DNA of 41,550 nt, from positions 1 to 41,550 of IMG/VR virus record IMGVR_UViG_3300044627_003686; one strand, 5' to 3'. Below, piece by piece: positions 14,727 through 40,648 of the stretch. A model generated the notes under the pieces. That model saw only the letters and a list, made by a program, of their open reading frames with translations. It searched no databases and had not been told where the DNA came from. How positions within the stretch are numbered: the first letter of the stretch is position 1; each line of letters starts with the position of its first letter. The position numbers were made by a program, and so were the translations under genes. The stretch comes from a virus.

Positions 14727-14996
14727 ATGAGGAAGGTGAACCACCAAGACTTCTGCGAGCTGTCACCGCTCCAGATCCTCAAGGGCTGCGTCGCGGGAGA
14801 TAGGATCGAGATGAGGCGGCTCACGACGACGCCGGGACGCAAGCGCTCGGCGCCGAAGGCCAAGGTCGAGACGTGCATCATCACGGTGCGCGCGACGTGT
14901 GAGGATGGGCTTGTGGGAGAGCCCTACGACATCGCATGGTGCGGATGCTGCACGATGGGATGGTTCTTTGGCAAGAAACTCAAAGAGGAGACATGA
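14727..14996 (+). CDS. Small protein of unknown function
   Basis: This encodes 89 residues, starting after GCGAGG. A basic stretch (PGRKRSAPKAK) is followed by a strand-rich part, and the end has WCGCC, which could bind metal or form disulfides. Its stop is 1 base before the ATG of the deformylase-like gene, and the two are probably co-translated. The function is unknown. Confidence 0.6.
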   Translation: MRKVNHQDFCELSPLQILKGCVAGDRIEMRRLTTTPGRKRSAPKAKVETCIITVRATCEDGLVGEPYDIAWCGCCTMGWFFGKKLKEET

Positions 14997-14997
14997 G

Positions 14998-15678
14998 ATG
15001 GATCAGAACAACAAGCCCGCCGCGCCGCGCGACGTGGACAAGACTCACAACCTGCGCGATCTGTTGATCGATGGCCCGCCGCTGTTCGACGGCGACGAGC
15101 CTGATGAAGTGCTGGTGTGGCCGCACCCGTGGCTGCGGATCAAGAGCCTCCCGATGGGCGAGTATTACGCGACGGACGACGCGCCCGTCGCGTTCGATGA
15201 GCTGGTGCCGCGCCTGCTCAAGACGATGCGGCAGCGCGAGGCGATCGGCCTGAGCGCGATCCTCATCGGCATCCCTGCGCGCGTCGCTGTGCTGGAGTTC
15301 TCACCAACGGACAAGCCGGAGGACCGGGCACACATCGCGCTCATCGACCCCGAGATCAAGTCTATGAGCAAGAAGCTCATTGAGGTGGAGGTGGGCTGCC
15401 TCTCGCTCCCCGGTGTCACCGCCAAGATCAAGCGCCCTGAGTCGATCGTGGTGACGACGGGGCGTTTTGGGATGCCGGGGCGCGTCGCGCTGGAGGCCAA
15501 GGGGCTCGTCGCCGCGAACGTCCTGCATCAGATGGACCTCATGGACGGTGTGCTCTACTGGCAGCGTCTCTCCCGCCAGCGCCAGCGCTCTTTGCTCAAG
15601 CAGTATGAGCGGCTGGTGCTCGATAAGATGGCAGGCGAGGCGGCCCCGGTGCTCAAGCAAGCGCTGTCGGAGGTTTAG
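14998..15678 (+). CDS. Peptide-deformylase-like protein lacking catalytic residues
   Basis: This encodes 226 residues. Active deformylases remove the formyl group from nascent proteins, using a metal held by one Cys and two His. The fold is clear from AIGLSAILIG (82-91), VGCLSLPGV (132-140) and VLHQMDLMDGVLY (175-187) in the right order. The key residues are changed. The motif 1 Gln is Leu89, the EGCLS Glu is Val132, and HExxH reads HQMDL, so the catalytic Glu is Gln178 and the second His ligand is Leu181. Cys134 and His177 remain. It is very likely inactive as a deformylase and may instead bind ribosomes or other partners. The ATG at 14998 has GGAG about 8 bases upstream. Confidence 0.75.
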   Translation: MDQNNKPAAPRDVDKTHNLRDLLIDGPPLFDGDEPDEVLVWPHPWLRIKSLPMGEYYATDDAPVAFDELVPRLLKTMRQREAIGLSAILIGIPARVAVLEFSPTDKPEDRAHIALIDPEIKSMSKKLIEVEVGCLSLPGVTAKIKRPESIVVTTGRFGMPGRVALEAKGLVAANVLHQMDLMDGVLYWQRLSRQRQRSLLKQYERLVLDKMAGEAAPVLKQALSEV

Positions 15679-16320: not shown

Positions 16321-17136
16321 ATGAGCGATACAGAGACGTTGATTCAGGACAGGCCGTATCTCGCGGTGCTCCAGCACACGATCGCGGCGGGGCATCCGAG
16401 CCCTGACAGGACAGGCACGGGCACGCTGCGCACGTTCGGCGCCCATATGCGCTTCGATCTGACGCAAGGGTTTCCGCTGCTCACCACCAAGCGGATCTTC
16501 TTCCGCGCGGTGGTGGAGGAGCTGCTATGGTTCCTGCGGGGGTCTGTGGACGTGCGTGAGCTGCACGCGAAGAATATCACGATCTGGGACGAGTGGATCT
16601 TGCCCGACTACACGATCGGGCACGGGTACGGCCTGCTGTGGCGCCAGTGGAACAGCACGGGCGAGGACGTGGACCAGATCAAAAACCTCATCGACGGCAT
16701 CAAGGCGGACCCGAACGGGCGCCGTCACATCGTCACCGCATGGGACGCGGGGCGCATCAAGCAGGCTGCGCTGCCGCCCTGCCACAGCTTTTGGCAGGTC
16801 GTGGTGATCGATGGGCGCCTGAGCATCCAGCTCCATCAGCGCAGCGGCGACCTGTTCCTCGGCGTGCCGTTCAACATCGCGAGCTACGCGCTGCTCGTCC
16901 ACATCCTCTCGAAGCTGACCGGGCATGAGCCGGGGGAGCTTGTGGTGAACATCGCTGATGCCCATATCTATCAAAACCATCGTGAGCAGGTCCACACGCA
17001 GCTCGCGCGCGTCCCGCGCCCCTCGCCTATGCTCACCATCGCCCCCTTCGAGCGTCTGGAGGAGCTGACGAGCGAGCACTTCCAGATCCACGACTACAAC
17101 CCCCACCCATCAATCCCCGCGCCTGTGGCGGTGTGA
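16321..17136 (+). CDS. thyA: Thymidylate synthase
   Basis: This encodes 271 residues, the usual length for this enzyme. It makes dTMP from dUMP using methylenetetrahydrofolate. The core is well kept: RTGTGTLRTFG (30-40), LLTTKR, EELLWFLRGS, the catalytic Cys154 in LPPCHSFWQ, then RSGDLFLGVPFNIASYALLVH, and DAHIYQNHREQV near the end. AAGGAGG lies before the ATG. It lets the phage make thymidine for its own DNA, working beside the MazG-like gene. Confidence 0.95.
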   Translation: MSDTETLIQDRPYLAVLQHTIAAGHPSPDRTGTGTLRTFGAHMRFDLTQGFPLLTTKRIFFRAVVEELLWFLRGSVDVRELHAKNITIWDEWILPDYTIGHGYGLLWRQWNSTGEDVDQIKNLIDGIKADPNGRRHIVTAWDAGRIKQAALPPCHSFWQVVVIDGRLSIQLHQRSGDLFLGVPFNIASYALLVHILSKLTGHEPGELVVNIADAHIYQNHREQVHTQLARVPRPSPMLTIAPFERLEELTSEHFQIHDYNPHPSIPAPVAV

Positions 17137-20676: not shown

Positions 20677-22744
20677 GAAAGACGCCGGGCGCTGGCGCAC
20701 AAACTTCACCGCCACCGATGAGGCGGGCAGCCAGAGCAAGCTGCTTGAGTCGCTGACGCCCGAGGAGCTGGAGCTGCTGATCGCCTTCGAGAACGGCGAC
20801 CCCGAGGCGCTGCGCAAGATCAGGGAGATGGAGCGCGCGGTGTTTCGCCACACGCCTGTCTCGATCGAGGACTGGCTCAAAGACCCATATTACTGCGGCC
20901 CTGACGGTGCAAAGCTGTATCCGAGGCTCAAGCAGGCGCTCATCGAAATTGTGAATGGTAGCTTCTCGGAGGTGATCTGCACGGGCGGCGTCGGCTGGGG
21001 CAAGAGCACACTCGCCTGTATGCTCGCACGATACATCATTTACTATCTCACCTGCTTTCAAGATCCTGCCACCGCTCACGGCCTCGGTGCCGGGTCTGTT
21101 GTGACGATCGCGCTGTTTTCTACAAAGCTCAAGCAGATCAAATACACGACATGGGTGAAGCTCAAGGCAGGCATTGAGAATACGCAGTATTTTAAGGACT
21201 GCTGCAACGTCCGCTGGCCTATGACTGGAACGGAAGCATATATCAACAAAAACATTCAGATATTGGCATCGCCCACAGACAGCGAGGCGGTGATCGGTAC
21301 AGACCTCTACATGGCGATCATGGATGAGGTCAACTTCGGGCGCAACACCACAGCGGTCGAGGAGAAGGCGAGCATCAACGCCACGTCCACGTTTATGACG
21401 ATGGGCGAGCGGATCTACCTCTCGATCGTCAAGCGCGTCGCCAGCCGCTTCTCATATCGCGGTCACGTCTCCGGCAAGGTGGTGGTGATCTCGTCCAAGA
21501 ACGACGAGAGCGACCTGACCGAGAAGCGCGTGCTGGCGGCCAAGCACACGCCGTCGATCTACGTTGCTGATTATCTCTCGCACGAGATCAAGCCTGCCTC
21601 AACGTCGTCTGGCAAGATGATGCGTGTCTTCTTCGGCGGCGCGCACCGCAAGAGCCGGATCTTGGCCGATGATGAGCCAGATCCGCCCGAGATAGCGGGC
21701 GATGAGGGGGCGATGGTGATCCATCTGCCCGCCGAGATGCGCCCAGCGTTTGAGCAGGACATGGTGAGATCGCTGCGCGATCTTGCTGGCGTTTCTGTCC
21801 CCAACTACAAACATTATTTTAACGAAAGCACCAAGATCGACATGATCTTTGATGGTCGCCAAGACGGCCATCCTTTTTACAGCGACGAGTGGATTTGCGG
21901 CGACGAAAAGAACGTCAAATGGGACGAGATATGTTCGAGCAAGTATGAGCGCGTCGCGGCTGGTGTTATCGAGAAGGTGTTTGTTCCGAGGATCAACCCT
22001 GACATCCCAAGGCATGTGCATATCGACCTGTCGAAAAAGAAAGACTCCACCGGGCTCGCGATCGCTCACGTCGCGAGCTATGTGGAGATCCCCTTCTGGG
22101 ACAACGACGCGCAGGTCATGGTCAAGGAGGTGCATCCGTTTATCTGGATAGACTTTGTGCTGGCGATTAACGCGCCCGCAGGCGGTGAGATCGACTATGA
22201 CATGATCCGCTCGCTGCTCTACGAGTTCAAGAACCACGGCTTCAAGTTCCGGCTCGCCACCGCCGACTCATACCAGTCGCATGACCTGCTGACGCAGCTC
22301 CGCAAGAAGCTGTGCCCTGCCGAAGAGCTGTCGATGGATCGCACCATCCGCCCCTATGAGGTCTTGAAAGCGGCGGTGCATCAGGGCCGCGTGTCCTGCT
22401 ATAACTACCCCCGGCTCAAGCGTGAAATATCGCGCTTGCAGTACGACGCGAAGCGCTTGAAGGTGGATCACCCTCCGAATGAGGGCTCCAAGGATGGTGC
22501 TCTGGAGAGCAAGGACGTGTCCGATGCTGTGGCAGGCGTGACGATGACCCTGACAGAGTATGCGAGGACGGGCCAGAGCGCCGTGGACCCGTCGATGGTG
22601 ATGGCGATGCAAAACCAGCAGGCGGCAGCGTCTCCGATGGATCGATTTATTGATGTGCAGACTGGAAAGCCTGTGCCGTCGCCCCAAGTCAACAATTCGC
22701 CTTGGTGGACTGCCAACGGTGGGCTTCCATTCTTGAAAGGATAA
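20666..22744 (+). CDS. Terminase large subunit (gp17-like packaging ATPase and nuclease)
   Basis: This encodes about 692 residues. The motor pumps DNA into the prohead and cuts it. Walker A is TGGVGWGKST (106-115) and Walker B with the catalytic Glu is MAIMDE (216-221). The C-terminal RNase H-like nuclease begins at HVHIDLSKKKDSTGLA, and later acidic residues are seen in TADSY and KDVSDAVAG. The start at 20666 is favoured by GGAGGG 5 bases upstream; 20645 also lies in frame. It overlaps the small-terminase candidate by 11 bases. The length is longer than T4 gp17 (610 residues). Confidence 0.92.
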   Translation: MPLEKDAGRWRTNFTATDEAGSQSKLLESLTPEELELLIAFENGDPEALRKIREMERAVFRHTPVSIEDWLKDPYYCGPDGAKLYPRLKQALIEIVNGSFSEVICTGGVGWGKSTLACMLARYIIYYLTCFQDPATAHGLGAGSVVTIALFSTKLKQIKYTTWVKLKAGIENTQYFKDCCNVRWPMTGTEAYINKNIQILASPTDSEAVIGTDLYMAIMDEVNFGRNTTAVEEKASINATSTFMTMGERIYLSIVKRVASRFSYRGHVSGKVVVISSKNDESDLTEKRVLAAKHTPSIYVADYLSHEIKPASTSSGKMMRVFFGGAHRKSRILADDEPDPPEIAGDEGAMVIHLPAEMRPAFEQDMVRSLRDLAGVSVPNYKHYFNESTKIDMIFDGRQDGHPFYSDEWICGDEKNVKWDEICSSKYERVAAGVIEKVFVPRINPDIPRHVHIDLSKKKDSTGLAIAHVASYVEIPFWDNDAQVMVKEVHPFIWIDFVLAINAPAGGEIDYDMIRSLLYEFKNHGFKFRLATADSYQSHDLLTQLRKKLCPAEELSMDRTIRPYEVLKAAVHQGRVSCYNYPRLKREISRLQYDAKRLKVDHPPNEGSKDGALESKDVSDAVAGVTMTLTEYARTGQSAVDPSMVMAMQNQQAAASPMDRFIDVQTGKPVPSPQVNNSPWWTANGGLPFLKG

Positions 22745-22749
22745 AGAGC

Positions 22750-24501
22750 ATGGGCATCTATGATAGGGTCGTGAAGAGGCTGCGCTCGGTGTTTGGTGCC
22801 CGCGCCGAGCAGATGCGCGAGATCAAGCAAGAGCAGCAGCCCTACAACTGGAATAGTTGGGGGTTTAGCTCTGCCAGTCTCTACAACACGCCTTATGACC
22901 AGTACAGGCGCGCGCTCGCCCGCGAACAAGACCTCCTCCTGCGGATGCAAGAATACGAGGAGATGGACACTTATTCGGACATCACCACGATGCTCGACAC
23001 CTACGCTGACGAGAGCACGCAAGATGATGCGCTGCGTTCGCTCAAGGTGTGGGCTGAGAGCAACGATGAGACGATCGCTGGTGACGTGAACATGATGCTC
23101 CACGAGCAGGTCAAGCTCGACTCCTACCTGTGGAGCCTTGTGAGGTACGCGCTCAAGTATGGCAACAACTATGAGCGCCTGTTCCTGACACCAGAGCGGG
23201 GCATCATCGCCACGGAGCCGCTTCCCGCAGGGCTCACGCGGCTGGTGTTTGATCCGTTCGGCATCCAGATCGGCTTTGTGGTGTCCCCAACGCCCACGAT
23301 GCCCGTGGAGCCCGATCAGCTCGTGAAGCTCGTGGAGCAGCGCCGCCAGCACTCCAACCTCAATTTTTATGGATATACTCGCTTCCTGCCGATCGTGGCG
23401 TTCGAGGAATGGGAGGTCGCGCACTTCAAGATGCCGGGCGGCGACCGTATGGACCCCTATGGTGAGTCTTCGCTTGAGCGCATCCGCCACCTGTGGCGCC
23501 GCCTCGCGCTCATGGAGGATGCGGCGGTGGTCCACAAGCTCACGCGCGCCCCGTCGCGTTACGCCTTCTATGTGGACACCGGGGAGTTGTCGGGCCTGCA
23601 CGCGCTCCAGTATGTGCAGCGCGTCCGCGACCAGATGAAGCGGCAAAAGGTCGTCGGGACAGATGGCAAGATCAACACCGGCTACAATGCGTTGTCCCCT
23701 GACGAAGACTTCTTCATCCCTGTGTCGCAGGATCGCGGCGAGAGCGTCAGGATCGACACCATCTCGGGCGCCGACTATCAGGCGATGGACGACATCAAAT
23801 ACTTCCAGCAGAAGATAGGGCGGGCCTCGTCGATCCCCAATTTTGCGAGCGACAATCAGGCGAGCGAGCGACCGCTGGCGAATACCGATGTCCGCTTCGC
23901 CTCGCTGGTGGTGCGCATCCAGTCGATGATCAAGCAGGGCGTCAAGCGCATGGGCGATGTCCACCTGCTCGCGACGGGCCGCAGCCCGAGCGATCATCCG
24001 TATCGGATCATGATGGCGGCGCCGAGCGCGATCTTGGAGCTGGCGCGGATCGAGGTCTTGAGCGCCAAGGCCGACATCATGTCGCGTCTCCAAGAGAACA
24101 TCAGCGTTCGTTGGATGCTGGTGCAGCTCTTTGGCTTCTCGGATGATGAAGCGATCTCGCTCATGGTGTCACGCCAAGAGGAGCTTGATTGGGTCATCTC
24201 GCGCGAGATCGAGCGCGACTTCGAGCGGGAGAAGCGGCTCAACAGCTTGCGCGAGGATCTTGGCATGGAGGGTCTTGTGGACGCTTTCGGCAAGAGCAAG
24301 ATCATCACCGAGCTGAAGGACTCGCGCGGAGCCTACGGCATCACAGAGCGCGAGTATGTACAGGGCCGCGACAAGATCACCGCCGAGGACGGCTGGCGCA
24401 AGATCCGTAAGACCGATCCTCTGCTCGCGATCCGCCTTGAGGTGCTGGGCGAGCGGCTGCACAGGCTGCACGGCGAGTCGCGCTTCAAGCAGGCGGCATG
24501 A
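22750..24501 (+). CDS. Portal protein (gp20-like)
   Basis: This encodes about 583 residues. The portal is the dodecameric ring at one capsid vertex through which DNA enters. Recognisable gp20-like parts are TYSDITTMLDTYADE near 78-92, LVRYALKYGNNYERLFL, GDRMDPYGESSLERI, the APSRYAFYVDTGEL strand, and a helical stretch IKYFQQKIGRASSIPNF. The ATG at 22750 follows AAGGA. The stop TGA is the first three bases of dispersed repeat copy F, and a terminator follows. Confidence 0.9.
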   Translation: MGIYDRVVKRLRSVFGARAEQMREIKQEQQPYNWNSWGFSSASLYNTPYDQYRRALAREQDLLLRMQEYEEMDTYSDITTMLDTYADESTQDDALRSLKVWAESNDETIAGDVNMMLHEQVKLDSYLWSLVRYALKYGNNYERLFLTPERGIIATEPLPAGLTRLVFDPFGIQIGFVVSPTPTMPVEPDQLVKLVEQRRQHSNLNFYGYTRFLPIVAFEEWEVAHFKMPGGDRMDPYGESSLERIRHLWRRLALMEDAAVVHKLTRAPSRYAFYVDTGELSGLHALQYVQRVRDQMKRQKVVGTDGKINTGYNALSPDEDFFIPVSQDRGESVRIDTISGADYQAMDDIKYFQQKIGRASSIPNFASDNQASERPLANTDVRFASLVVRIQSMIKQGVKRMGDVHLLATGRSPSDHPYRIMMAAPSAILELARIEVLSAKADIMSRLQENISVRWMLVQLFGFSDDEAISLMVSRQEELDWVISREIERDFEREKRLNSLREDLGMEGLVDAFGKSKIITELKDSRGAYGITEREYVQGRDKITAEDGWRKIRKTDPLLAIRLEVLGERLHRLHGESRFKQAA

Positions 24502-25667: not shown

Positions 25668-27545
25668 ATGACGACGCAGCTATTGATCGAGGAGTTTGGC
25701 CCCGTCCGTTTTCAGCTCGTGGAGAGCGACGGCGGCGGCTTGGTGGCCGAAGGGGAGTTCGGCTACTGCGACAAGCCCACGTCCAATGGGCGTGTCTACC
25801 CCCGCAAGATCATGGAGCGCGAGATCGAGCGTCTGCGCCCCAAGATGGAGACTGGTGCGCTGTTCGGAGAGCTGGATCACCCCGAGGATGGGAAGACCAA
25901 GCTCCAGCGCGCCGCCATGATCATCGAAGACATGCGCATCGCGGGCGATGGGCGGGTGACAGGTCGCTTCCGCGTGATGGAGGGCACGCCGAACGGTGAC
26001 ACGTTGGCAGCCATCGTGCGCGCTGGCGGCAAGGTCGGCGTCAGCTCGCGCGGCATCGGCTCCACGGTCACGGAAGGCAGCTCGCTCGTGGTGCAAGAGG
26101 ACTTCCGCCTGTTCGCCTACGATGCGGTCGCGGAGCCTGCGGTGTCGTCGGCGCTGCCTGCCTTCAACGAGGGCGGCGGGCGTCGCGGTCGCGGCTCGCG
26201 CGGGATGCGTGAGGACCACGATCACCAGCAGTCGCACAACCAGCGCTCTCAGCCGCGTGCGTCGCAGTCCTCCCCTCGCTACCTGTCCGATCGGGAGGTC
26301 GATGATCTGATCGAGAGCGAGGATGACGTGTTCGCCCCGCACTCCATGCTCCAGCTCGTCGAGAGCATCACCAAGAGCGGTGCGAGCAACAGCGCTGCGG
26401 CTCGCGAGCTTGCGGAGGCCCGCAAGGAGCTGGCGGAGAAGAACCTGCTGCTCCAGCGCTCCGCCTCAAAGCTCGTGCAGGAGCACGATGAGCGGGTCGC
26501 GCTTGAGGAGGAGCTGGCGCAGGTCGAGGAGGAGCTTGATCAGGTCAGGAAGCAGCACGATCTGACCAAGCACACCCTCTGGACGGCCACCACCGAGGCG
26601 CTGATCAACGCAGCGCTGCCGCAGATCCACAGCGAGTCGCGCGAGCACTTCCTGCGGCTCATCGGCAAGCCCACGCCCGGATCGTCTGTGCGCGACCTTG
26701 AGAGCCGGATCAACGTCCAGCTTGAGGAGTTCGAGCGGACGGGACGCGCGGTGCATCTCGACGCCGACCTGTTCCTTGAGCGCACCGAGCTGCTGGCGCT
26801 CGCCGGGCAGAAGTTGTCCGAGCTGGAGGAGGAGGTGCAGCGCGCCCGCTTTAGCGACGACCTGCTGGCCGAGTCGGCGGATGAGCTGACGCGCCTCTCT
26901 GCTGCCGCGCGCGAGTCCGAAGGGCTGCGCACCAAGCTCGCAGAGGCCGCTGACATGCTGACGCGAATGTCTCGCGAGGCCAAGCAGCTTGAGCGCCGCG
27001 CCACCAAGGCCGAGGAGGGCTATGCAACCTTGAGCGCGCACGTCGAGCTGCTTGAGGGGCGTGTTGAGAGCGCCGAGAAGTACAAGCGCAAGCTCGCCGC
27101 GACGGAGATGGACAACTTCAAGCTCCAGCGGTGCCTGAGCGCGCAGTATCCGAAGCGCATGTATGAGGCGCTGCGCGATGCGGACACCAAGGAGCAGATC
27201 ACCGAGGCGGCGGACACCTTCTTGCGCACGACGCGCGCTGCGGCTGCTCGCGAGGAGGGCACGGCAGCGCGCCCCCCGCAGCTCGCCGGGACGGGCACCT
27301 CTCAGCATATGCCGATGACCGAAGAGAACGCGGTGATCCAGCGGATGCAGCAGATGTCGGTGCATCGCGGCAAAAACAGCGCGGGCACCTCCAGTTTTGT
27401 TGAATCCGCCGCGACCCCCTCCCTACAACACAAGCAGCAGGGCGGTGCGTCCGCATGGGACGCTCATTCAGCCGCCGCCGCTACCAACGAAGACCCCATC
27501 GTCGCCCGAATGAAGGCGATGCAGGGCCACAGAGGCAAGGCATAA
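25668..27545 (+). CDS. Prohead protease fused to a coiled-coil scaffold-like region
   Basis: This encodes 625 residues. Residues 1-170 are a T4 gp21-like prohead protease: GELDHPED gives His71, and VGVSSRGIGS gives the catalytic Ser at 126 or 127. A flexible Gln/Arg/Ser-rich linker follows. Residues of about 210-520 are long coiled coil rich in Glu, Leu and Arg, as expected of an internal scaffold. The end holds two copies of a short motif, VIQRMQQMSVHRGK and IVARMKAMQGHRGK. T4 keeps protease (gp21) and scaffold (gp22) as separate genes. Here they appear joined, so the scaffold would be cleaved from its own protease. Confidence 0.8.
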   Translation: MTTQLLIEEFGPVRFQLVESDGGGLVAEGEFGYCDKPTSNGRVYPRKIMEREIERLRPKMETGALFGELDHPEDGKTKLQRAAMIIEDMRIAGDGRVTGRFRVMEGTPNGDTLAAIVRAGGKVGVSSRGIGSTVTEGSSLVVQEDFRLFAYDAVAEPAVSSALPAFNEGGGRRGRGSRGMREDHDHQQSHNQRSQPRASQSSPRYLSDREVDDLIESEDDVFAPHSMLQLVESITKSGASNSAAARELAEARKELAEKNLLLQRSASKLVQEHDERVALEEELAQVEEELDQVRKQHDLTKHTLWTATTEALINAALPQIHSESREHFLRLIGKPTPGSSVRDLESRINVQLEEFERTGRAVHLDADLFLERTELLALAGQKLSELEEEVQRARFSDDLLAESADELTRLSAAARESEGLRTKLAEAADMLTRMSREAKQLERRATKAEEGYATLSAHVELLEGRVESAEKYKRKLAATEMDNFKLQRCLSAQYPKRMYEALRDADTKEQITEAADTFLRTTRAAAAREEGTAARPPQLAGTGTSQHMPMTEENAVIQRMQQMSVHRGKNSAGTSSFVESAATPSLQHKQQGGASAWDAHSAAAATNEDPIVARMKAMQGHRGKA

Positions 27546-27547
27546 AG

Positions 27548-29119
27548 ATGAAGCATCAGTTTGGAGCTTACGGCGCTCGCACCGCCGCAGCCAATCTCTT
27601 CGAGGCGGGTCTGCCGTCCATCCGCAACAAGGCGTATGTCGCCCCGCTGGTCGAGAGCCACGGTGCGCTGCTGGAGGCGACGCTCAACCCCAAGTACCAC
27701 AACTATGAGAACCTGCTCGCGTCCTCCGCGATGCTCATGGAGAACACGGTGCGTCACTGGGGTGCGCAGGAGGCTGCGAAGAACCCCGGCACCATGTCCG
27801 CCATGCTCACGGAGAGCGGGTCGGCCACGACCACGGCGAATCTGGATTCGTACAAGCAGACGATCTATCCGCTGCTGATGTCGGTGTTCCCCAACCTGAT
27901 CGCCAACGAGATCGTGTCGGTGCAGCCGACCGCCGGGCCGCAGGCGCTCATCTACTACCTGAGCGCCGAGCACTCGAAGGCCAAGGGCTCGACGGCTGCC
28001 GGGACCGACATCCACAAGGACTACGACTACTCGTACTCCTCGGAGCTGGTGAAGAATGAGGCGTTGCAGGTCGGCAACGGCACCGACTTCGGCGGCGCGG
28101 GCGCGGTCCTCAACAGCTCGCTGGTGTACACCCCCGTCCTGCCGCGCCGCGAGCAGACGGGCTCCCCCGTGATCGAGGTGCTGATCGAGGAGGTCAGCGG
28201 CTCGGGCACCGTCGTGCAGTCGGCGCGCGATGACGGCGCTGGCGGCTTTGTGTTCACGCCCGCTGGCGGCTCGACGAGCGGCGCCATCGGCTACGGCACC
28301 GGCCAGATCAGCAACTTCAAGTTCCAGAACGCCCCCGCGCTCAACAACCTGATCCGCGTGTCGTATCGCTACGATATGGAGGGCAACCAGAATCGCCCCA
28401 CCATCTCGCTGAACACGCGCTCGGTGATGGTGGAGACGGAGGAGTATAGCCTCAAGGCCGAGTGGAGCATCGAGGCGATGCAGGATCTCATCGCGCAGCA
28501 GGGCATCTCGGCTGAGGCCGAGTTCATGGCGCTGATCGCGGACAAGCTCCAGCTCGACATCGATCGCACCATCATCAACGACATCCACCAGCAGGCGTTG
28601 TTCTCGACGGTGTGGAACCGCGCGGCGATCCCGTCCGGCGTGGCGGAGCTGGACTACCTGCGGACGCTGATCACCGTGATCACGCAGCAGGGCGCCCAGA
28701 TCCATCAGGCGTCGGGCCGCGCGCCCGCCAACTTTGGCATCGTCGCCCCGGTTGTGTCGGGCATCCTCCACCAGCTCAACACCCACGGCGACTTTATCCC
28801 CGCCGCGCCGGTCGAGGAGCGCCCGACGAGCTACGGCCCCCGCAACTCCGACTTCGGCATCTTCAAGGTCGGCTCGCTCGGCTACCGCCTGTCGGTGTAT
28901 CAAGATCCGGGGTGGGCGCCGAACCAGATCCTCCTCGGCCTGCGCGGCTCGGACTATCTGGACGCCGGGTATGTCTGGGCGCCGTATGTCGCGCTGTACA
29001 TGACCCAGACCCTCCAAGACCCCTCGGACGGCAAGCACAAGAAGCTGTTTATGTCCCGCTCCGCCCGCAAGATGCTGCGCCCGGAGTATTACTCCAAGAT
29101 CAGCATCCTCAACCTGTGA
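27548..29119 (+). CDS. Major capsid protein (gp23-like, HK97 fold)
   Basis: This encodes about 523 residues and forms the shell. The gp23-like core includes YPLLMSVFPNLIANEIVSVQP near 107-127 and, later, KAEWSIEAMQDLIAQQG and LQLDIDRTIINDI, close to T4 gp23 in pattern. About residues 190-276 hold an inserted beta domain with DDGAGGF and GAIGYGTGQISNF, whose motif recurs in the tail sheath. The ATG at 27548 is 3 bases after the previous stop. A strong hairpin follows the gene. N-terminal cleavage by the protease upstream is likely but the site is not known. Confidence 0.92.
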   Translation: MKHQFGAYGARTAAANLFEAGLPSIRNKAYVAPLVESHGALLEATLNPKYHNYENLLASSAMLMENTVRHWGAQEAAKNPGTMSAMLTESGSATTTANLDSYKQTIYPLLMSVFPNLIANEIVSVQPTAGPQALIYYLSAEHSKAKGSTAAGTDIHKDYDYSYSSELVKNEALQVGNGTDFGGAGAVLNSSLVYTPVLPRREQTGSPVIEVLIEEVSGSGTVVQSARDDGAGGFVFTPAGGSTSGAIGYGTGQISNFKFQNAPALNNLIRVSYRYDMEGNQNRPTISLNTRSVMVETEEYSLKAEWSIEAMQDLIAQQGISAEAEFMALIADKLQLDIDRTIINDIHQQALFSTVWNRAAIPSGVAELDYLRTLITVITQQGAQIHQASGRAPANFGIVAPVVSGILHQLNTHGDFIPAAPVEERPTSYGPRNSDFGIFKVGSLGYRLSVYQDPGWAPNQILLGLRGSDYLDAGYVWAPYVALYMTQTLQDPSDGKHKKLFMSRSARKMLRPEYYSKISILNL

Positions 29120-30433: not shown

Positions 30434-31492
30434 ATGGCCCTGATCTTTGAAGCACTGGAGCCCGGCTGGACGCTCGTGGGCGCTGCCCCGACCTACCGTG
30501 TGCGCTTCATCGACGATGTGAGCGGCAACCCCACCGCGCCCACGTCCGTTGACTCGCTGGAGGTGTTGGATGCAAGCGGCGCGCTGCTGCGCGTCTTGGT
30601 GCCGCCCGACATTATCACGCCTGCGACGGGCTATTATCAGACGAGCGACATCACGATCGACACCCCCGGCCTGTACGCGCTCCGCTGGAGCTGGACGGTG
30701 GGCGCCGACGAGTTCAAGGCGGTCACGTCCTTTGAGGTGATCAACGACCCGCGCGGGCTCGTCGAGGTGCAGATGATGCGCGACATCATGCAGCGCCTCG
30801 GCAGCGCGTGGCTTGAGGTCGAGCTGCCGAACGGCACGCTGCGCCACTGTCTTGACGACGCGAAGCGGTGGTATACGATGCAGTTTCAAGACCTCATCCG
30901 CCACCCGCTCACGCTTGTCCCCGGCACGCAGAAGTACCAGCTTCCCCCCGACTGCTTTTTCGTGGTGGATGTGATCTTCCCTGTGAGCATCGCTTATGCA
31001 CCAGCGCCGTTCGCCGGAAACTCGTTGTATGGGATCGCTGGCGGCGGCGCGATGGCGATGCCGGGCGGTGTGGTCACGGGCCAGACCTCGGACGGCTTCT
31101 ATTCGAGCGCTGTGCAGTCTGTGCAGATCGCGGAGATGGGGCGCCGCATCTTCGGACGCGAGCCGAGCTGGGAGTGGTTGAAGCGCGAGCGGCGTCTGTA
31201 CATCTATCCGAAGATCACCACGGGCGGCCAAGCCTATGTGGACTATGCTTCGATGACGGTGGATACCGAGAACATGACGCCGGACGAGCATCACTTCATC
31301 CTGAACTACGCGATCGCGGTCGCCAAGGAAGTGCTCGGGCGCATCCGGGGCAAGTATGGCGGCTATCCGGGCGCGGACGGTGACAGGACGCTCGACGCGG
31401 GCGAGCTGCTGGGCGAGGCTCAGAGCGAGAAGCAAGCGCTCACGGAGCGCCTGCGCAAGTTTGCGCCGCAAGGCTGGATCGTAACAGGGTGA
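30434..31492 (+). CDS. Neck/adaptor-like protein with N-terminal Ig-like domain
   Basis: This encodes about 352 residues from an ATG with GAGGCGAG upstream. Residues 1-100 look like an Ig-like beta domain (TYRVRFIDDVSG, PGLYALRWSW). The rest resembles phage head-to-tail connector proteins: a helix with HCLDDAKRWYTMQF, then PGTQKYQLPPDCFFVVDVIFPV, a segment with REPSWEWLKRERRLYIYPK, and a helical end EVLGRIRGKYGGYPG. Place between capsid and sheath supports a neck or connector role. The exact T4 counterpart (gp13 or gp14) is not fixed. Confidence 0.6.
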   Translation: MALIFEALEPGWTLVGAAPTYRVRFIDDVSGNPTAPTSVDSLEVLDASGALLRVLVPPDIITPATGYYQTSDITIDTPGLYALRWSWTVGADEFKAVTSFEVINDPRGLVEVQMMRDIMQRLGSAWLEVELPNGTLRHCLDDAKRWYTMQFQDLIRHPLTLVPGTQKYQLPPDCFFVVDVIFPVSIAYAPAPFAGNSLYGIAGGGAMAMPGGVVTGQTSDGFYSSAVQSVQIAEMGRRIFGREPSWEWLKRERRLYIYPKITTGGQAYVDYASMTVDTENMTPDEHHFILNYAIAVAKEVLGRIRGKYGGYPGADGDRTLDAGELLGEAQSEKQALTERLRKFAPQGWIVTG

Positions 31493-31497
31493 TCAAG

Positions 31498-32262
31498 ATG
31501 CGCAAGCGTGTGAATGTGCCGACGTGGGCTGTGGAGGAGCTTCAAGATGTGGTGTTTGAGGGCTGGGCGCTTGTGAGGGTGCGCGACCTTGCCGAAGGCC
31601 GCTCGTTGCTCGTCTATGAGGCTGTGGATGAGCGCGAGCCCCCGCGCGAGCTGGAGGTGGACGCTGACCCGGACAAGGCGGTGCTGTCCAAGCTGGACAA
31701 GGACGCGCTGTCTGTCGCCGTGGCGACGCGCACAGAGCCGCGCGAGGACGATGTGTATGTGCTCACCGCGTCGATGAGCTATCGCCCCTCCAATGGCAGC
31801 GTCACCTATCTGCTGCCCGCCCAGCGCCTCCAGCCCGGCGACAAGATCCGCGTGCGTCAGAAGCTCTCAACGGGCGTCTGGCTGTTCGACATCGCCTCGG
31901 GCTCAAGGCGCGGCATGTTCTTCACCGTCGCGCGTGCCGAGTGGGACACGCTCAAGGAGAAGCTGCGGATGGATTCGCCCGGAGTTGACGATGCAGCCAC
32001 AGCGCAGGCCGACAAGGGAGCGAGCGCACCGGGAGAGGCCAGCGTCAGCGACGCCGACCGCAACTCCTCGCCGCTCGCAAAGTCGAGGTCATATATGCGC
32101 GTCACCAAGAAGCTCCCGACGCTGCCTGTGCCGAAGAAGTTTGACAGCTACTTCTCTGCACCGCTCGCGAAGCGCCCGCCGCCTCCTCGCGATGGTGAGG
32201 GTGATGAGAAGGGCGGCGGCGGCAGCGGCGGCGGGTTTGGCGGTTTTGGCAGGAGGCGTTGA
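31498..32262 (+). CDS. Late protein of unknown function with Gly-rich tail
   Basis: This encodes about 254 residues. The ATG at 31498 is chosen because AGGGTG lies 6 bases upstream; a GTG at 31489 overlaps the earlier stop and is inside that ribosome site. The N-terminal 150 residues look like a beta-rich domain with LVYEAVDERE and RPSNGSVTYLLPAQRL. The C-terminal part is disordered, with basic, Pro-rich and then Gly-rich stretches ending RRR. No family is recognised. It lies in the neck gene cluster. Confidence 0.6.
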   Translation: MRKRVNVPTWAVEELQDVVFEGWALVRVRDLAEGRSLLVYEAVDEREPPRELEVDADPDKAVLSKLDKDALSVAVATRTEPREDDVYVLTASMSYRPSNGSVTYLLPAQRLQPGDKIRVRQKLSTGVWLFDIASGSRRGMFFTVARAEWDTLKEKLRMDSPGVDDAATAQADKGASAPGEASVSDADRNSSPLAKSRSYMRVTKKLPTLPVPKKFDSYFSAPLAKRPPPPRDGEGDEKGGGGSGGGFGGFGRRR

Positions 32263-32816
32263 TGAATCGCAATTTGTTCATGTGGTTTGAGCTGCCGCGC
32301 GGTGTGAAGGCGCATCTGCGGGCGAACGCGGCCAACGGCCTGACCAACCCGGATGGTGATCTGCACATCACAGCCTTCTATGAGAAGGATGTGGACGCTG
32401 AGAGCGCCAAGCGGTTTATGTCGTCGATCAAGGCTTTGGCGCAGAGCTGGCAACCGATCCGGGTGGCGACCACGGGCGCGGCGATCTTCGACGGTGCGGG
32501 CGACGGCGGGCGCTTCCCGCTCATCTACCTCATCAACGCGCCGGGCCTTGAGCGCTGGCGCGTGGCGATCATGGATGCGTTCGAGGATGCGGTGGGGCGT
32601 GATGCAAGCCAGCGCTTCGGGTATATCCCGCACCTGACGTTGACCTATGTGGAGCCGGACAAGGAGCTTGAGCATGGCTGGGAGCGCGACATGGTGAGCA
32701 TGGCGCCTCCGCCTTGGATGATGCGCAAGATCGGCGTCAAGTGGGGTGACAAGGCGCTCATGCTGGAGCTTGGGACACCGGGCTGGCGCGAGCTGCAACC
32801 GGGCGAGGGCGCATGA
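32262..32816 (+). CDS. 2H phosphoesterase (LigT/Acb1-like fold), candidate counter-defence enzyme
   Basis: This encodes 184 residues with the two HxT motifs of the 2H phosphoesterase superfamily: LHITAF (H35, T37) and PHLTLTY (H124, T126), spaced as in the family. These enzymes act on cyclic phosphates or 2'-5' linkages. Within this superfamily T4 gp57B (Acb1) degrades the cyclic nucleotide signals of CBASS immunity, while LigT-like members act on RNA ends. Which substrate applies cannot be read from sequence. AGGAGG precedes the ATG, which overlaps the previous stop by 1 base; the end overlaps the next gene by ATGA. It is unusual to find it inside the neck genes. Confidence 0.75.
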   Translation: MNRNLFMWFELPRGVKAHLRANAANGLTNPDGDLHITAFYEKDVDAESAKRFMSSIKALAQSWQPIRVATTGAAIFDGAGDGGRFPLIYLINAPGLERWRVAIMDAFEDAVGRDASQRFGYIPHLTLTYVEPDKELEHGWERDMVSMAPPPWMMRKIGVKWGDKALMLELGTPGWRELQPGEGA

Positions 32817-33439
32817 GCCTCAACCAGCGACCAAAGATCCTCACCTCTGTCCCAAAAGAGGTGATGCTCCAGATGCGTTATGTCTGGGAGCACACGTTGC
32901 TCTCCTCCTCGCATCCAGCGGGCTCCACCACGCTCTCATCTGTGCCGCTGTATCCGAAGACGCAGGTGTCAGCGGGTGAGGCGCGTTCGGATCGCAACGT
33001 GGGGATGCCCGGCATCAACCCCCCCGCTTCGCTCGGGCTGCGGATCTGGCGCGCTGGTGTGGAGCGGGTGGACCCCATCTATGGTCAGCCGATCGGGCAG
33101 GAGTTCGAGGCGCCGTATGTGACGATGGGCGTCTTGAAGTATGATGCGACGAGCAACCGCGACCTGTCACAAGGCGAGTGGGGTCAGCAGCTCTCAAACA
33201 CCGGCGAGCTGCATATCCCGTATTATCACCACCTGATCAATCAGCTCCCGATGCCACAAGAGGGTGATCTGGTCGAGGTGTGGGCGCAGAGCTGGGAGCT
33301 GCTGGGGACGTTCTACAACATCATCAAGGTCGATCCAGCAGGCCGCATACAGGGCGGGCCATATTACACCCGCTGGCAGCTCCAGCTTGAGCGGCGCGAG
33401 GAGTTCTTACCTGAGCGGCGGCTGCTCGGCTGTCGCTGA
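32813..33439 (+). CDS. Probable neck or connector protein
   Basis: This encodes 208 residues. The ATG overlaps the stop of the phosphoesterase gene (ATGA). A conserved-looking segment has EGDLVEVWAQSWELLGTFYNI and a C-terminal YYTRWQLQLERREEF, which resemble head-tail connector proteins of other myoviruses. The tail end is arginine-rich. Its stop TGA lies within repeat copy H. A neck role is inferred from place and this pattern. Confidence 0.5.
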   Translation: MSLNQRPKILTSVPKEVMLQMRYVWEHTLLSSSHPAGSTTLSSVPLYPKTQVSAGEARSDRNVGMPGINPPASLGLRIWRAGVERVDPIYGQPIGQEFEAPYVTMGVLKYDATSNRDLSQGEWGQQLSNTGELHIPYYHHLINQLPMPQEGDLVEVWAQSWELLGTFYNIIKVDPAGRIQGGPYYTRWQLQLERREEFLPERRLLGCR

Positions 33440-36380: not shown

Positions 36381-39050
36381 ATGTTGCTCACGAATCCCGG
36401 TGTATACCGCGAGGAGGTCCGCCGTGACCTCCGCGTCCTGCCCGCGCTGTCCACCGCGAATCTCGCGCTGGTCGGCGCCTTCTCCAAGGGGCCGGTCGGC
36501 CAGCCCACGTTCGTCGCGTCAGATGCCGAGTTCAAGCGCATCTTTGGCGACTTCACCGCTTTGTCGCGCGCGCCGCTGGCGTGGGCAGCCTATGCGTTGA
36601 ACGGCGGCCAGTTTGGCTACATCCTGCGGCTTGCGCCCTCGGATGCCGAGACGGCTGTGGCCTCCTTCGCGAAGGCTGCGGCGCCTGTGACCCTCGCCAC
36701 GGCTTCTGGCGGCGGTCCTGTGGCGGTGAACCTCGCTGCTGGCCCCTCCCCGCTCAACAGCCTGCCGATCAAGCCGGGCACGGTGACGATCCAGATCGCT
36801 GATGTGAAGCAGGTCAGCTTGTTCAACACGGGCGTGACCTACGCGATCGCGGCCACCTCTGTGAACCTGACGCTCGGCAACCGGCTGGTCGTGCCGGGGT
36901 CGTTCTCGACAACGATCGACGGCGACTCCTACACCGACGACGGCGCGGGCGGCATCGAGCAGGGCGTCACCCCCTCCGGCACGATCGACTATGAGACGGG
37001 CGCGGTGTCCATCACGCTCACTGGCCCCTCGGCTACGGCGGGTTCTGTGATCGTCGGCTACCAGTACAACCTGTCCTCTAAGGTGAGCGGCGAGGTCGCC
37101 GCGCAGGCCGTGGCAGGTGCGACGGTCTATCATGGCAAGGTCGCCAACGGCGATCTGCTGACGAGCGCCGACAACGACTTCATGGTCTTCTCGTGGACTG
37201 ATGCTGGCGACGTGGCGCGCACCGCTGAGGTCGATGATCTGGGCGCTGTGACGGGCGATGCGACGGGCACGGTGGATCTGGCCTCGGGCGAGTGGACGCT
37301 GTTCCTCGGCGTGAACACGGTCAAGGTCGGCACCGCGATCAGCGTCTCGTACTGGCACAACCGCTACATGACCGCGACCGATGATGGGCTCGGCGGCTTC
37401 ATCAACGGGACGGTCCCCGCGCTGAACCTCGCCCAGCCGCGTGCCATCAACTATGAGACGGGCGCCATCTCGTTCACGACCAACACCGTCGCGCTGACGG
37501 GCTCCCCTGTGCGCGCCTTCTACTCGCAGGCTGTGCAGGCGATGGAGGCGCGCGATCCGGGTGCCTCGGGCGACGATCTGCGCGTGCAGATCACGCCGGT
37601 CAACTCCTCGCTCAACCGCTTGACCGGCCAGTATGCGCTGTTCAACGTGTCAGTGCAGGAGGAGAACGCGGGCGATGCCAACTTCACGCAGGTCTGGGCC
37701 ACGACGAACGCGGTGAACCTCGACGATGTGGCGAACGCGCGCCACATCGCGCAGGTCGTCAACGATGACATCACCGGCGCGCAGATCGTCTCGATGGCGA
37801 TCCCCGCCGACGATGCGATCCCCGATGGGTTGCAGGGCGCCACCGACACGCAGGATCTCGGAGATGGGACGGGCGCGGCGGTGGAGATCCTGTCGCAGCT
37901 CTACCTGTTCGATGGGCGGATCGTGCCGGGCTCTGTGCGCATCGCGTATACGAGCGGCGGTGTCGCGCGCTCCATCGTGGACAACAACCTCGGCGGCCTG
38001 ACGGGCGATGTGGATGGGGGCTCGACGGCCTCGATCGACTACACCACGGGCGTGCTCCAGTTCACGCCGGATCAGGCGCCGGACAACTCGACGGCGGTGG
38101 AGGTCACGTTCGCCTACCTGCCGCTCACGAGCCTCGCCACGACCGACTTTGAGGGCGGCGAGGACGGCAGCGCGTTGTCTACCTCCGATGTGGTCGGCCC
38201 GACGCTCTCCGCGATCGATGGCGGTATCTACGGCCTGAACAAGATCGAGGAGATCCCGCTCATCCTCGCGATCCCCGACTTCGCTGGTGTCGTCGCCGTG
38301 GAGCGCGAGGCGATCGCGTATGCCGAGCAGCGCTTCGACACGATCGTGCTGTGCTCGCCGCCCGCAGGTGTGACGCGCGATCAGGCGATCGAGTATCGCC
38401 TCTCGGCGCTGGCGTCCAACTCCTCGCGCGCGGTGATGTACTGGCCTTGGATCAAGGTCCGCGACCCGCTCTCGGGCGCGACGGTCACGGTGCCGCCGCA
38501 TGGTCATGTGGCTGGCGTCTGGGCGAAGACGGATCAGGTCGAGGGCATCCAGCAGGCGCCCGCAGGCACCGTCTTCGGGCGGCTCCAGTTCATCGAAGGC
38601 GTCGAGCGCGTGGTGAGCAAGGTGGATCTGGGGCTGCTCTCGCAGGTCGGGATCAACTCGCTGTATCGCCCGCCGCGCCAGCCGCTCGTGGTGTACGACT
38701 GCCTCACGCAGTCGGATAACATCGACTTCCGCTTCCTGAACGTGCGCCGCGTCAAGGACTATCTTGACATCCTCGTGGCGGAGGCGCTGGGCGATCTGGT
38801 GTTCCGCAACCTCGGCCCGACGCTGTGGTCGATCGCGACGCAGCGCATCCGCACGGTGCTCTCGCAGGCGTTCCGCAACGGGCAGCTCCGGGGCACGTCT
38901 GAGGCGCAGGCGTTCGAGATCAAGGTGGATGGCGAGAACAACCCGCCAGCGGTCGAGGAGGCGGGCGAGCTGGTGTGTGATTGGGGGATCAGTCCGGGCC
39001 GCCCCGGTCGCTTCATCCGCTCGCGCAGCCGCATCCTCGCGGTGCAGTAA
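36381..39050 (+). CDS. Tail sheath protein (gp18-like) with four inserted beta repeats
   Basis: This encodes 889 residues, about 230 more than T4 gp18. It forms the contractile tail sheath. The N terminus PGVYREEV and the C-terminal core (WSIATQRIRTVLSQAFRNG, then CDWGISPGRPGRF) are typical of sheath proteins. The extra length comes from repeated beta modules at about 130-230, 250-327, 328-383 and 505-580, each with a form of DDGxGGxxG...IDYETGAxSxT...VxYxY. The same module is in the capsid protein. They would sit on the outer face. The ATG follows AAGGAG. Confidence 0.93.
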   Translation: MLLTNPGVYREEVRRDLRVLPALSTANLALVGAFSKGPVGQPTFVASDAEFKRIFGDFTALSRAPLAWAAYALNGGQFGYILRLAPSDAETAVASFAKAAAPVTLATASGGGPVAVNLAAGPSPLNSLPIKPGTVTIQIADVKQVSLFNTGVTYAIAATSVNLTLGNRLVVPGSFSTTIDGDSYTDDGAGGIEQGVTPSGTIDYETGAVSITLTGPSATAGSVIVGYQYNLSSKVSGEVAAQAVAGATVYHGKVANGDLLTSADNDFMVFSWTDAGDVARTAEVDDLGAVTGDATGTVDLASGEWTLFLGVNTVKVGTAISVSYWHNRYMTATDDGLGGFINGTVPALNLAQPRAINYETGAISFTTNTVALTGSPVRAFYSQAVQAMEARDPGASGDDLRVQITPVNSSLNRLTGQYALFNVSVQEENAGDANFTQVWATTNAVNLDDVANARHIAQVVNDDITGAQIVSMAIPADDAIPDGLQGATDTQDLGDGTGAAVEILSQLYLFDGRIVPGSVRIAYTSGGVARSIVDNNLGGLTGDVDGGSTASIDYTTGVLQFTPDQAPDNSTAVEVTFAYLPLTSLATTDFEGGEDGSALSTSDVVGPTLSAIDGGIYGLNKIEEIPLILAIPDFAGVVAVEREAIAYAEQRFDTIVLCSPPAGVTRDQAIEYRLSALASNSSRAVMYWPWIKVRDPLSGATVTVPPHGHVAGVWAKTDQVEGIQQAPAGTVFGRLQFIEGVERVVSKVDLGLLSQVGINSLYRPPRQPLVVYDCLTQSDNIDFRFLNVRRVKDYLDILVAEALGDLVFRNLGPTLWSIATQRIRTVLSQAFRNGQLRGTSEAQAFEIKVDGENNPPAVEEAGELVCDWGISPGRPGRFIRSRSRILAVQ

Positions 39051-39150: not shown

Positions 39151-39714
39151 ATGGCTCGTGGAACACAAAAGGACTTCTTGCAGGGGCACCGCTTCTTTGT
39201 CCGCTGCAACTCGGAGCAGGGTCTTGACCTGCTCCAGCCCCCGCTGGCCGAGGCCGACCCGCGCGGTGGTCTGGCGGGCTTCAACTCTGTGACGCTGCCG
39301 GACCTCTCGCTTGAGGCGGTCGAGTATCGCGACGGCGTGTCGATGTTCACCGCCAAGCAGGCTGGCTTCCCGCAGATCGGTGATCTGACGATGCAGCGCG
39401 GCGTGATCCGCAACGACTCGGCCTTCTATGAGTGGGCGATTCGTGCGTATCGCGGGCAGGGATACCGCGCCGATCTCACGATCCTCGTGTTCCCCGCCGA
39501 GGCGCTGATCGGGCGCGAGTTCGCGGGGCGCAACGCGCTCTTTGACGAGTCGCTGGCGACCAAGTACATCTGCTATGAGTGCTTCCCCACCAACATCGGT
39601 GCGTGGAACCTCGACGCGACGGGCGCCGACATCTTGATGCAAGAGGCGACGTTCACCTGCGAATACTTCACGAAGATCCATCCGGGCGAGCCGGACACGA
39701 CGACCCGCTTCTGA
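39151..39714 (+). CDS. Tail tube protein (gp19-like)
   Basis: This encodes 187 residues. It stacks to form the inner tube of the contractile tail. The pattern FNSVTLPDLSLEAVEYRDG near residues 54-72, GDLTMQRGVIRNDSAFYEW, and the C-terminal ATGADILMQEATFTCEYF strand fit gp19-like tubes. It follows the sheath gene, as in T4. GGAG precedes the ATG and a hairpin follows the stop. Confidence 0.85.
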   Translation: MARGTQKDFLQGHRFFVRCNSEQGLDLLQPPLAEADPRGGLAGFNSVTLPDLSLEAVEYRDGVSMFTAKQAGFPQIGDLTMQRGVIRNDSAFYEWAIRAYRGQGYRADLTILVFPAEALIGREFAGRNALFDESLATKYICYECFPTNIGAWNLDATGADILMQEATFTCEYFTKIHPGEPDTTTRF

Positions 39715-39781: not shown

Positions 39782-40648
39782 ATGGCGCGATCTCGACTGT
39801 GGGATCTGTATCAAAATCACAAGTTCCATCTATTCGACATCACCGAGTCCACAGCGCTCACGTCGTTCCTTGATCGACGTGACGCGCTGCTCGGGCTCGG
39901 CGGTGCGATCTCGGGCCTGCGCGCGCCGCGTCAGGTGCTCTCGCCCCAATACGCCTTCCAGAGCATCACCGCGCCGAGCTTGACGCTCGACTATGAGGAG
40001 ATGAAGTCTGGGACAAACCCGTTCAAGCGCCACGTCCCCACAGACGCGGAGGTGGACCCGCTGACGCTGACGCGCGGCGTGTTCATAGGCGACTCGGACT
40101 TCTACGACTGGATCATCACAGCGGTCTATGGCCGATCGGTGTACCGCCGCAAGCTGATGCTTGTCCAGCTCTTCAACCCTCCCCCGACTTTTGATGTGGG
40201 CGCGCTGGGCACGATCAACCCCACGGTGTCATGGGTCCAGCTCGTCGGCGGGCTCGTCACGACCACAGCAGAGAGTGAGGTGGCGGGCGGCGCGGCCAAG
40301 GCGCTCTCATCTGCCGCCGCCGCCGCCGCTGTCGCCTCGACGTTTGCCGCAGGGCTCGGCGCTCAGGCCGCGAGCAACGCGATCAACAGCGGGCTCAACA
40401 GCACGGTGCTCGGGCTCACGCCTGCCGACATCCTCGCGGCGGTGACGGCGCGCGTGTGGGTGCTGCATGACTGCGTGCCTGCGTCATACAAGTCCACGTC
40501 AGACTTTGACGCGAACAGCGCCGACATCGGGCTCCAAGAGCTTGAGATCCGCATGGAGCGCTTTGAGGAGTTCACGATGGACACCAAGCCCATCACCACG
40601 CCGCTTGGCTCCACGATCGCGGGCGCCGTCTTGAACGGGCTGACGTGA
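39782..40648 (+). CDS. Second tail-tube-like protein with Ala-rich insert
   Basis: This encodes 288 residues. Parts align in pattern with the tube protein: FQSITAPSLTLDYEEMKSG, LTLTRGVFIGDSDFYDW, and a C-terminal LQELEIRMERFEEF. It is about 100 residues longer. The extra part includes an Ala-rich segment (SSAAAAAAVASTFAAGLG) that is hydrophobic. It could be a tube initiator or a tail-end cap placed at the baseplate or neck. The ATG has GGAG upstream. It is probably a paralogue of the gene at 39151. Confidence 0.65.
   Translation: MARSRLWDLYQNHKFHLFDITESTALTSFLDRRDALLGLGGAISGLRAPRQVLSPQYAFQSITAPSLTLDYEEMKSGTNPFKRHVPTDAEVDPLTLTRGVFIGDSDFYDWIITAVYGRSVYRRKLMLVQLFNPPPTFDVGALGTINPTVSWVQLVGGLVTTTAESEVAGGAAKALSSAAAAAAVASTFAAGLGAQAASNAINSGLNSTVLGLTPADILAAVTARVWVLHDCVPASYKSTSDFDANSADIGLQELEIRMERFEEFTMDTKPITTPLGSTIAGAVLNGLT

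Follow-up and report, generated by a model that had tools for sequence, protein, structure and literature searches.

A free-standing 2H phosphodiesterase gene between the head and tail genes of a contractile-tail phage, with a candidate role in counter-defense

Does a 2H phosphodiesterase gene that lies among the virion genes of a phage encode an enzyme directed against host immunity, an enzyme that acts on RNA, or a part of the particle itself? The question is raised by a 41.5-kb virus record, analyzed here over its whole length (hereafter, the window), from a phage that has a contractile tail and a T4-like major head protein; the record is classed as linear and, as is often the case for such records, may be a fragment. 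The earlier note on this DNA had taken the gene for a candidate anti-CBASS enzyme related to T4 gp57B/Acb1 or, alternatively, for an enzyme that processes RNA ends.

Genomic setting and reading frame of the 2H gene

The structural genes of the window follow the order terminase, portal protein (22702–24501, plus strand; phrog_213, 2.8e-35), head maturation protease (25668–27545, plus strand; phrog_207, 2.6e-39), T4-like major head protein (27455–29119, plus strand; phrog_138, 3e-43, and tblastn matches to T4-like major capsid proteins), Ad2 or SU10-adaptor-like head-tail adaptor (30437–31492, plus strand; phrog_211, 2.8e-13, and PF24175, 5.6e-4, below the cut-off), the 2H gene (32262–32816, plus strand), several unmatched genes, the sheath protein of the contractile tail (36381–39050, plus strand; phrog_23, 3e-47) and two tail tubes. 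The replication genes are located upstream of this cluster. The window also encodes a peptide deformylase and a thymidylate synthase (14899–15678 and 16321–17136). In the tail sheath protein (889 aa), the main match to the sheath family spans residues 491–885, and the N-terminal half yields weak matches or matches to families without an assigned function. The tail-tube-like genes are arranged in tandem (39151–39714 and 39782–40648), and both match phrog_4542.

The 2H gene encodes a protein of 184 aa and starts with an ATG, an alternative TTG start being possible at 32259. The Shine-Dalgarno sequence AGGAGG (32251–32256, plus strand), read directly from the sequence, is located 5 nt 5' of the ATG. 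The stop codon of the upstream gene (31489–32262, plus strand; 257 aa), TGA at 32260–32262, shares its A with the ATG of the 2H gene (TGATG, a 1-nt overlap), and the 2H stop is overlapped by the ATG (32813) of the downstream gene (32813–33439, plus strand; 208 aa), as ATGA, so that the 2H gene is likely to be translationally coupled to both its neighbors. The GC content by codon position (0.64/0.46/0.82) is in line with that of the neighboring genes. Together with the PF13563 match and the family profile score described below, these features indicate that the open reading frame is real, as the earlier note had assumed, and the overlaps it reported on both sides are present.

The assignment of the gene to a neck cluster, made in the same note, is supported. 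It derives from the position of the 2H gene between the Ad2 adaptor upstream and the tail sheath downstream, both of which are found where expected, and neither of the two genes that touch the 2H gene matched any family; these flanking genes presumably encode neck proteins.

Predicted fold and a family of phage 2H domains

The 2H protein matches PF13563 (2_5_RNA_ligase2; E = 2.4e-10, 41.1 bits, the gathering cut-off being 27) and, weakly, LigT_PEase in the Pfam scan; the PADLOC defense models and NCBIfam yielded no match to it. The two HxT motifs characteristic of the superfamily read H35-I-T37 and H124-L-T126. In profile alignments, both coincide with the motifs of cyclic phosphodiesterases (CPDases), the match to the solved structure 5h7e reaching E = 1.4e-13. 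An AlphaFold model built from an alignment of 82 sequences is confident (pLDDT 91.5) and adopts a 2H fold in which predicted strands 35–41 and 124–130 start at the HxT motifs; it supersedes a poor single-sequence AF2 model (pLDDT 43). The best structural matches of the model are the D. radiodurans CPDase (Z 15.8), T. thermophilus TT0787 (15.4), human Usb1 (15.2) and E. coli LigT (15.0), followed at a distance by FBB1 Acb1 (11.2), a score lowered in part by the shorter length of Acb1. Designed "Cake" repeat proteins, which appeared among the PDB matches of the single sequence, were discarded as artefacts of repeat summing. Thus, the motifs and the superfamily named in the earlier note are borne out by the Pfam match, by the alignment with the catalytic motifs of solved 2H enzymes and by the predicted fold.

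Close relatives of the 2H protein were found neither by tblastn in phages or plasmids nor by peptide patterns in viral_contigs or genome_contigs. Its best PHROGs are phrog_2659 (3e-9), phrog_14859 and phrog_18402, and the weak tblastn matches include proteins of Gordonia and Arthrobacter phages, in which the 2H gene sits between the head protease and capsid genes; gp20 of Kovu combines a 2H domain and an XkdF-type prohead protease domain in one protein. Searches with the 2H domains of Kovu and of a megaphage (tblastn) retrieved 67 and 44 records, respectively, nearly all from actinophages, with annotations ranging from RNA ligase, head maturation protease and MuF fusion to aldolase. The same 2H/XkdF-type protease fusion is encoded at L006:7575-8708 and in related Arthrobacter phages, with the GenBank labels RNA ligase, aldolase class I and capsid maturation protease.

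With a pattern for the first motif, at least 120 loci were detected in viral contigs; all those listed encode a member of the family, most of them within large open reading frames. Among 59 such frames searched against Pfam, the fusion partners were portal, MuF-like, prohead protease and capsid domains, in agreement with the PHROG matches, along with zeta toxin, Tad3, ART and NUDIX domains in one or a few frames each. Partners of the latter kind are typical of phage-host conflict proteins, and we therefore counted them in favor of counter-defense. For the stand-alone members, the neighboring genes that could be matched are mostly those for the portal and head morphogenesis. In one 509-aa frame (L071:2165-3691, minus strand), the 2H domain is joined to a Tad3 domain (PF25185, 112 bits), which Pfam names as an inhibitor of type I Thoeris; this is the only Tad3 fusion seen among the family members.

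A profile was built from 81 related phage 2H domains, with the window protein left out. Against this profile, the window protein scores 75 bits and T4 57B (Acb1) 15 bits, and 500 shuffled versions of the window protein score at most 4.3 bits. The identity of family members to the window protein is 13–29%, and several residues of the family consensus are missing from it, A38-x-x-E41-K42 replacing L-x-x-L-G, so that it is a divergent member. Placed by its sequence, the window protein is a stand-alone member of a large, LigT-like phage 2H family whose genes lie in head-assembly clusters. The 2H gene is not fixed in large phages with a related capsid, given that Agrobacterium phage Atu_ph07 has no match to PF13563.

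Both catalytic histidines were invariant in an alignment of sequences from five phages and then in the larger one, which comprises 82 family sequences; the threonines are retained in at least 80 of these. Such invariance at 13–29% identity points to selection on catalysis and weighs against a catalytically dead 2H domain that would serve only as a structural neck or head assembly factor. The fusion of relatives to many unrelated head proteins and the neck-cluster location of the window gene would suit such a factor, as would the presence, among the structural matches of the model, of the central domain of AKAP18, a 2H fold without known catalysis; on balance, we consider a purely structural role highly improbable.

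Candidate functions of the 2H protein

Arg130 of E. coli LigT is the residue that holds the product phosphate and the nucleophilic water (PMC5283653). This residue is located five positions past the second catalytic His, and Arg occupies the same position in the CPDase-type sequences aligned. In the phage family, the position holds Tyr in 74 of the 82 sequences, Trp in three and Arg in none; in the window protein, it is Y129, five residues past H124. The family was collected with a pattern for the first motif only, so that the Tyr signature is not a selection effect. A Tyr is present at this position also in the three Acb1 sequences compared, those of T4, FBB1 and BCSR5.

The RNA ligase families PF09414, PF09511 and RtcB were detected neither in the window nor in any of the nine actinophage genomes and 24 virus records (30–156 kb) scanned that carry the family; in the same scans, T4 was positive for both PF09414 and PF09511, and cellular controls were positive for RtcB. 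Because many of the virus records might be fragments, the nine actinophage genomes weigh more in this comparison. Apart from the controls, RNA ligase families were present only in the two megaphages.

These observations bear on the idea of an RNA-end-healing 2',3'-CPDase of the LigT/ThpR type, which would open cyclic phosphates produced by host anticodon nucleases or other RNases and so allow religation. The nearest profiles and folds are those of 2',3'-CPDases, and the Pfam family itself is 2_5_RNA_ligase2, but the Arg that contacts the product phosphate and water in LigT is replaced by Tyr here and found in no member of the family, the ligase partners are missing from the genomes and records listed above, and fusion to head proteins is ill-suited to a cytoplasmic repair enzyme. 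We accordingly regard RNA-end healing as distinctly unlikely. Of the RNA-end processing offered as an alternative in the earlier note, the plain CPDase type is thus weakened by the Tyr and by the lack of ligase partners, and an RNase stays in contention.

Such an RNase would be a virion-linked, Usb1-like enzyme that leaves 2',3'-cyclic phosphates and acts on RNA of the host or the phage, breaking it down or trimming it, either on entry or while heads are assembled. Usb1 ranks with the top structural matches (Z ~15), the CPDase Arg is absent, and Iyer et al. 2017 regard this activity as compatible with the joining of 2H domains to MuF or portal, in analogy with the fusions of RNases (PBECR) (PMC5512222). 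However, sequence identity to Usb1 is only ~11%, and the Tad3 fusion points toward signal-based defense; all considered, an RNase of this kind appears somewhat unlikely.

The replacement of Arg by Tyr, the absence of ligases from nine actinophage genomes and the single Tad3 fusion fit counter-defense or an RNase better than RNA-end repair. We tentatively favor the possibility that the window gene encodes a catalytically competent 2H phosphodiesterase that is co-produced with the head and neck proteins and directed against host defense, most likely by cleaving a nucleotide signal. Under this scheme, the protein would be produced along with the head and neck proteins through translational coupling and would probably be a component of the virion or of its precursor, inside it or at its surface; for the window protein, which itself is unfused, the virion association is suggested by the fusions in its relatives. 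The two HxT motifs would let a ribose 2'-OH attack the adjacent phosphodiester without the help of a metal, so that the enzyme would cleave nucleotides of the infected cell, the target being an immune signal that bears a 2'-OH, such as a cyclic oligonucleotide, a 2'-5' oligoadenylate or a related molecule. A CBASS signal is only one possible substrate, and no anti-CBASS specificity is implied.

Several considerations count against a role in counter-defense: the window protein is divergent within its family, the Tad3 fusion is a single case, an enzyme that is expressed late and is not packaged would miss the early alarm, and the fold of the window protein as a whole is more similar to RNA 2',3'-CPDases than to Acb1. 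A bolder proposal, which we deem unlikely, is that virion-borne members of the family are delivered along with the DNA, by injection or release, and destroy a nucleotide immune signal at the onset of infection. They would then be pre-loaded counterparts of Acb1 from a separate lineage, possibly with another substrate, of which the Thoeris signal is an example, given the Tad3 fusion. If the family does consist of packaged counter-defense enzymes, these would represent a common and overlooked means by which phages neutralize signal-based immunity from the very start of infection. The family is large, with the at least 120 loci detected by one motif, and is usually labeled "RNA ligase"; since Arg is replaced by Tyr and ligase partners are missing, the RNA-repair label can be tested by one simple assay.

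Much of this picture has been drawn before. Iyer et al. 2017 describe phage 2H domains that are fused to MuF or portal, or stand alone, and that are not linked to RNA ligases, and propose, as a prediction, that they act as RNases or degrade nucleotide immune signals (PMC5512222). Cleavage of signals by 2H enzymes has precedents in Acb1 (PMC9117128) and in the poxvirus LigT-like PDEs (PMC11410667). The fold, the superfamily, the head-gene context and both functional ideas are thus already published (PMC5512222; PMC9117128; PMC11410667), and the statement that RNA ligases are not associated with these domains, made by Iyer et al. (PMC5512222), is repeated here on new data. The present analysis adds the survey of the size and context of the family, the Arg-to-Tyr signature, the test for the absence of ligases, the Tad3 fusion, and a member that is encoded on its own in the neck region of a phage with a T4-like capsid. 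None of these points was found in the literature searched, which took in few subscription papers; in the same literature, we found no activity or assigned substrate for the phage head-cluster 2H family.

Comparison with known 2H enzymes

Acb1 (T4 gp57B) shares with the window protein the 2H fold, the HxT/HxT tetrad and the Tyr past the second motif, and the T4 57B gene likewise adjoins head-completion genes, so that the location of the window gene is neutral with respect to an Acb1-like function. These likenesses, and structural matches to Acb1 at Z ~11, speak for a genuine Acb1-family enzyme directed at CBASS. In contrast, PF23474 (Acb1) had no match in the window, whether proteins were scanned (E ≤ 1) or the genome was searched (E ≤ 10), whereas T4 57B, which also belongs to phrog_755, matches PF23474 at 2.7e-60; phrog_755, the Acb1 PHROG, reaches only 0.028 across 19 residues of the window protein, and the family profile separates the two proteins (75 bits for the window protein and 15 bits for T4 57B). 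We therefore find membership in the Acb1 family very doubtful. The closeness to Acb1 asserted in the earlier note does not hold up, given the silence of PF23474, the Z scores of 15–16 for LigT and the CPDases against 11.2 for Acb1, and the phage head-cluster 2H family as the nearest kin; judging from profile and motif comparisons, the window protein is probably best described as a distant cousin of Acb1 that lies outside its family.

The two proteins also differ in length and perhaps in their base-stacking and lid residues. Acb1 is an enzyme that degrades 3'3'-cGAMP, cUA and cAAA. It employs aromatic base-stacking residues, E141 and a C-terminal lid (PMC9117128). Of Y12, W74, F107, W147 and E141, none seems to have a clear conserved counterpart in the window protein except for an aromatic residue at the W74 position (F76), and an aromatic residue is present there in CPDases as well. 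W175 of the window protein was considered as a mimic of the lid residue W147 and dropped, the position being variable in the family.

A 2H gene of its own is found in the megaphage LR756511 (L003:5013-5588), just upstream of the portal gene, with a match to phrog_755 (4e-7). It was rejected as an orthologue of the window gene because phrog_755 fits it better than the window family does (12 bits), although the placement is parallel. The portal frame of this megaphage (L003:6203-8779) contains an apparent intein-like insert (CVAGDTLI ... VMHNC). In the portal of cyanophage Pam3 (PDB 8hds), residues 497–589 show a weak match to T4 57B (E = 0.063), with H-x-T and H-x-S motifs; this segment might be a 2H domain within a virion structure, the match being too weak to rely on.

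LigT and the CPDases (D. radiodurans 5h7e and E. coli LigT) are the nearest solved structures both by profile (1.4e-13) and by fold (Z 15.8); their HxT motifs align with those of the window protein, the Arg is exchanged for Tyr, and the identity is 13–18%. The actinophage 2H proteins of phrog_2659, phrog_14859 and phrog_18402, whose annotations read RNA ligase or head protease and which include gp17 of Gordonia phage Jambalaya and gp20 of Arthrobacter phage Kovu, belong to the same family by profile; they have both HxT motifs in common with the window protein and, in most cases, the Tyr after the second. These proteins are mostly fused to portal, MuF or prohead protease or encoded beside them, whereas the window gene is free-standing, between the adaptor and unmatched genes of the neck region in a contractile-tail phage with a T4-like capsid, and its product is ~20–29% identical to them. 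The 2H domains of phage polyvalent proteins described by Iyer et al. (PMC5512222) are fused to MuF or portal or stand alone; the window protein consists of a single domain.
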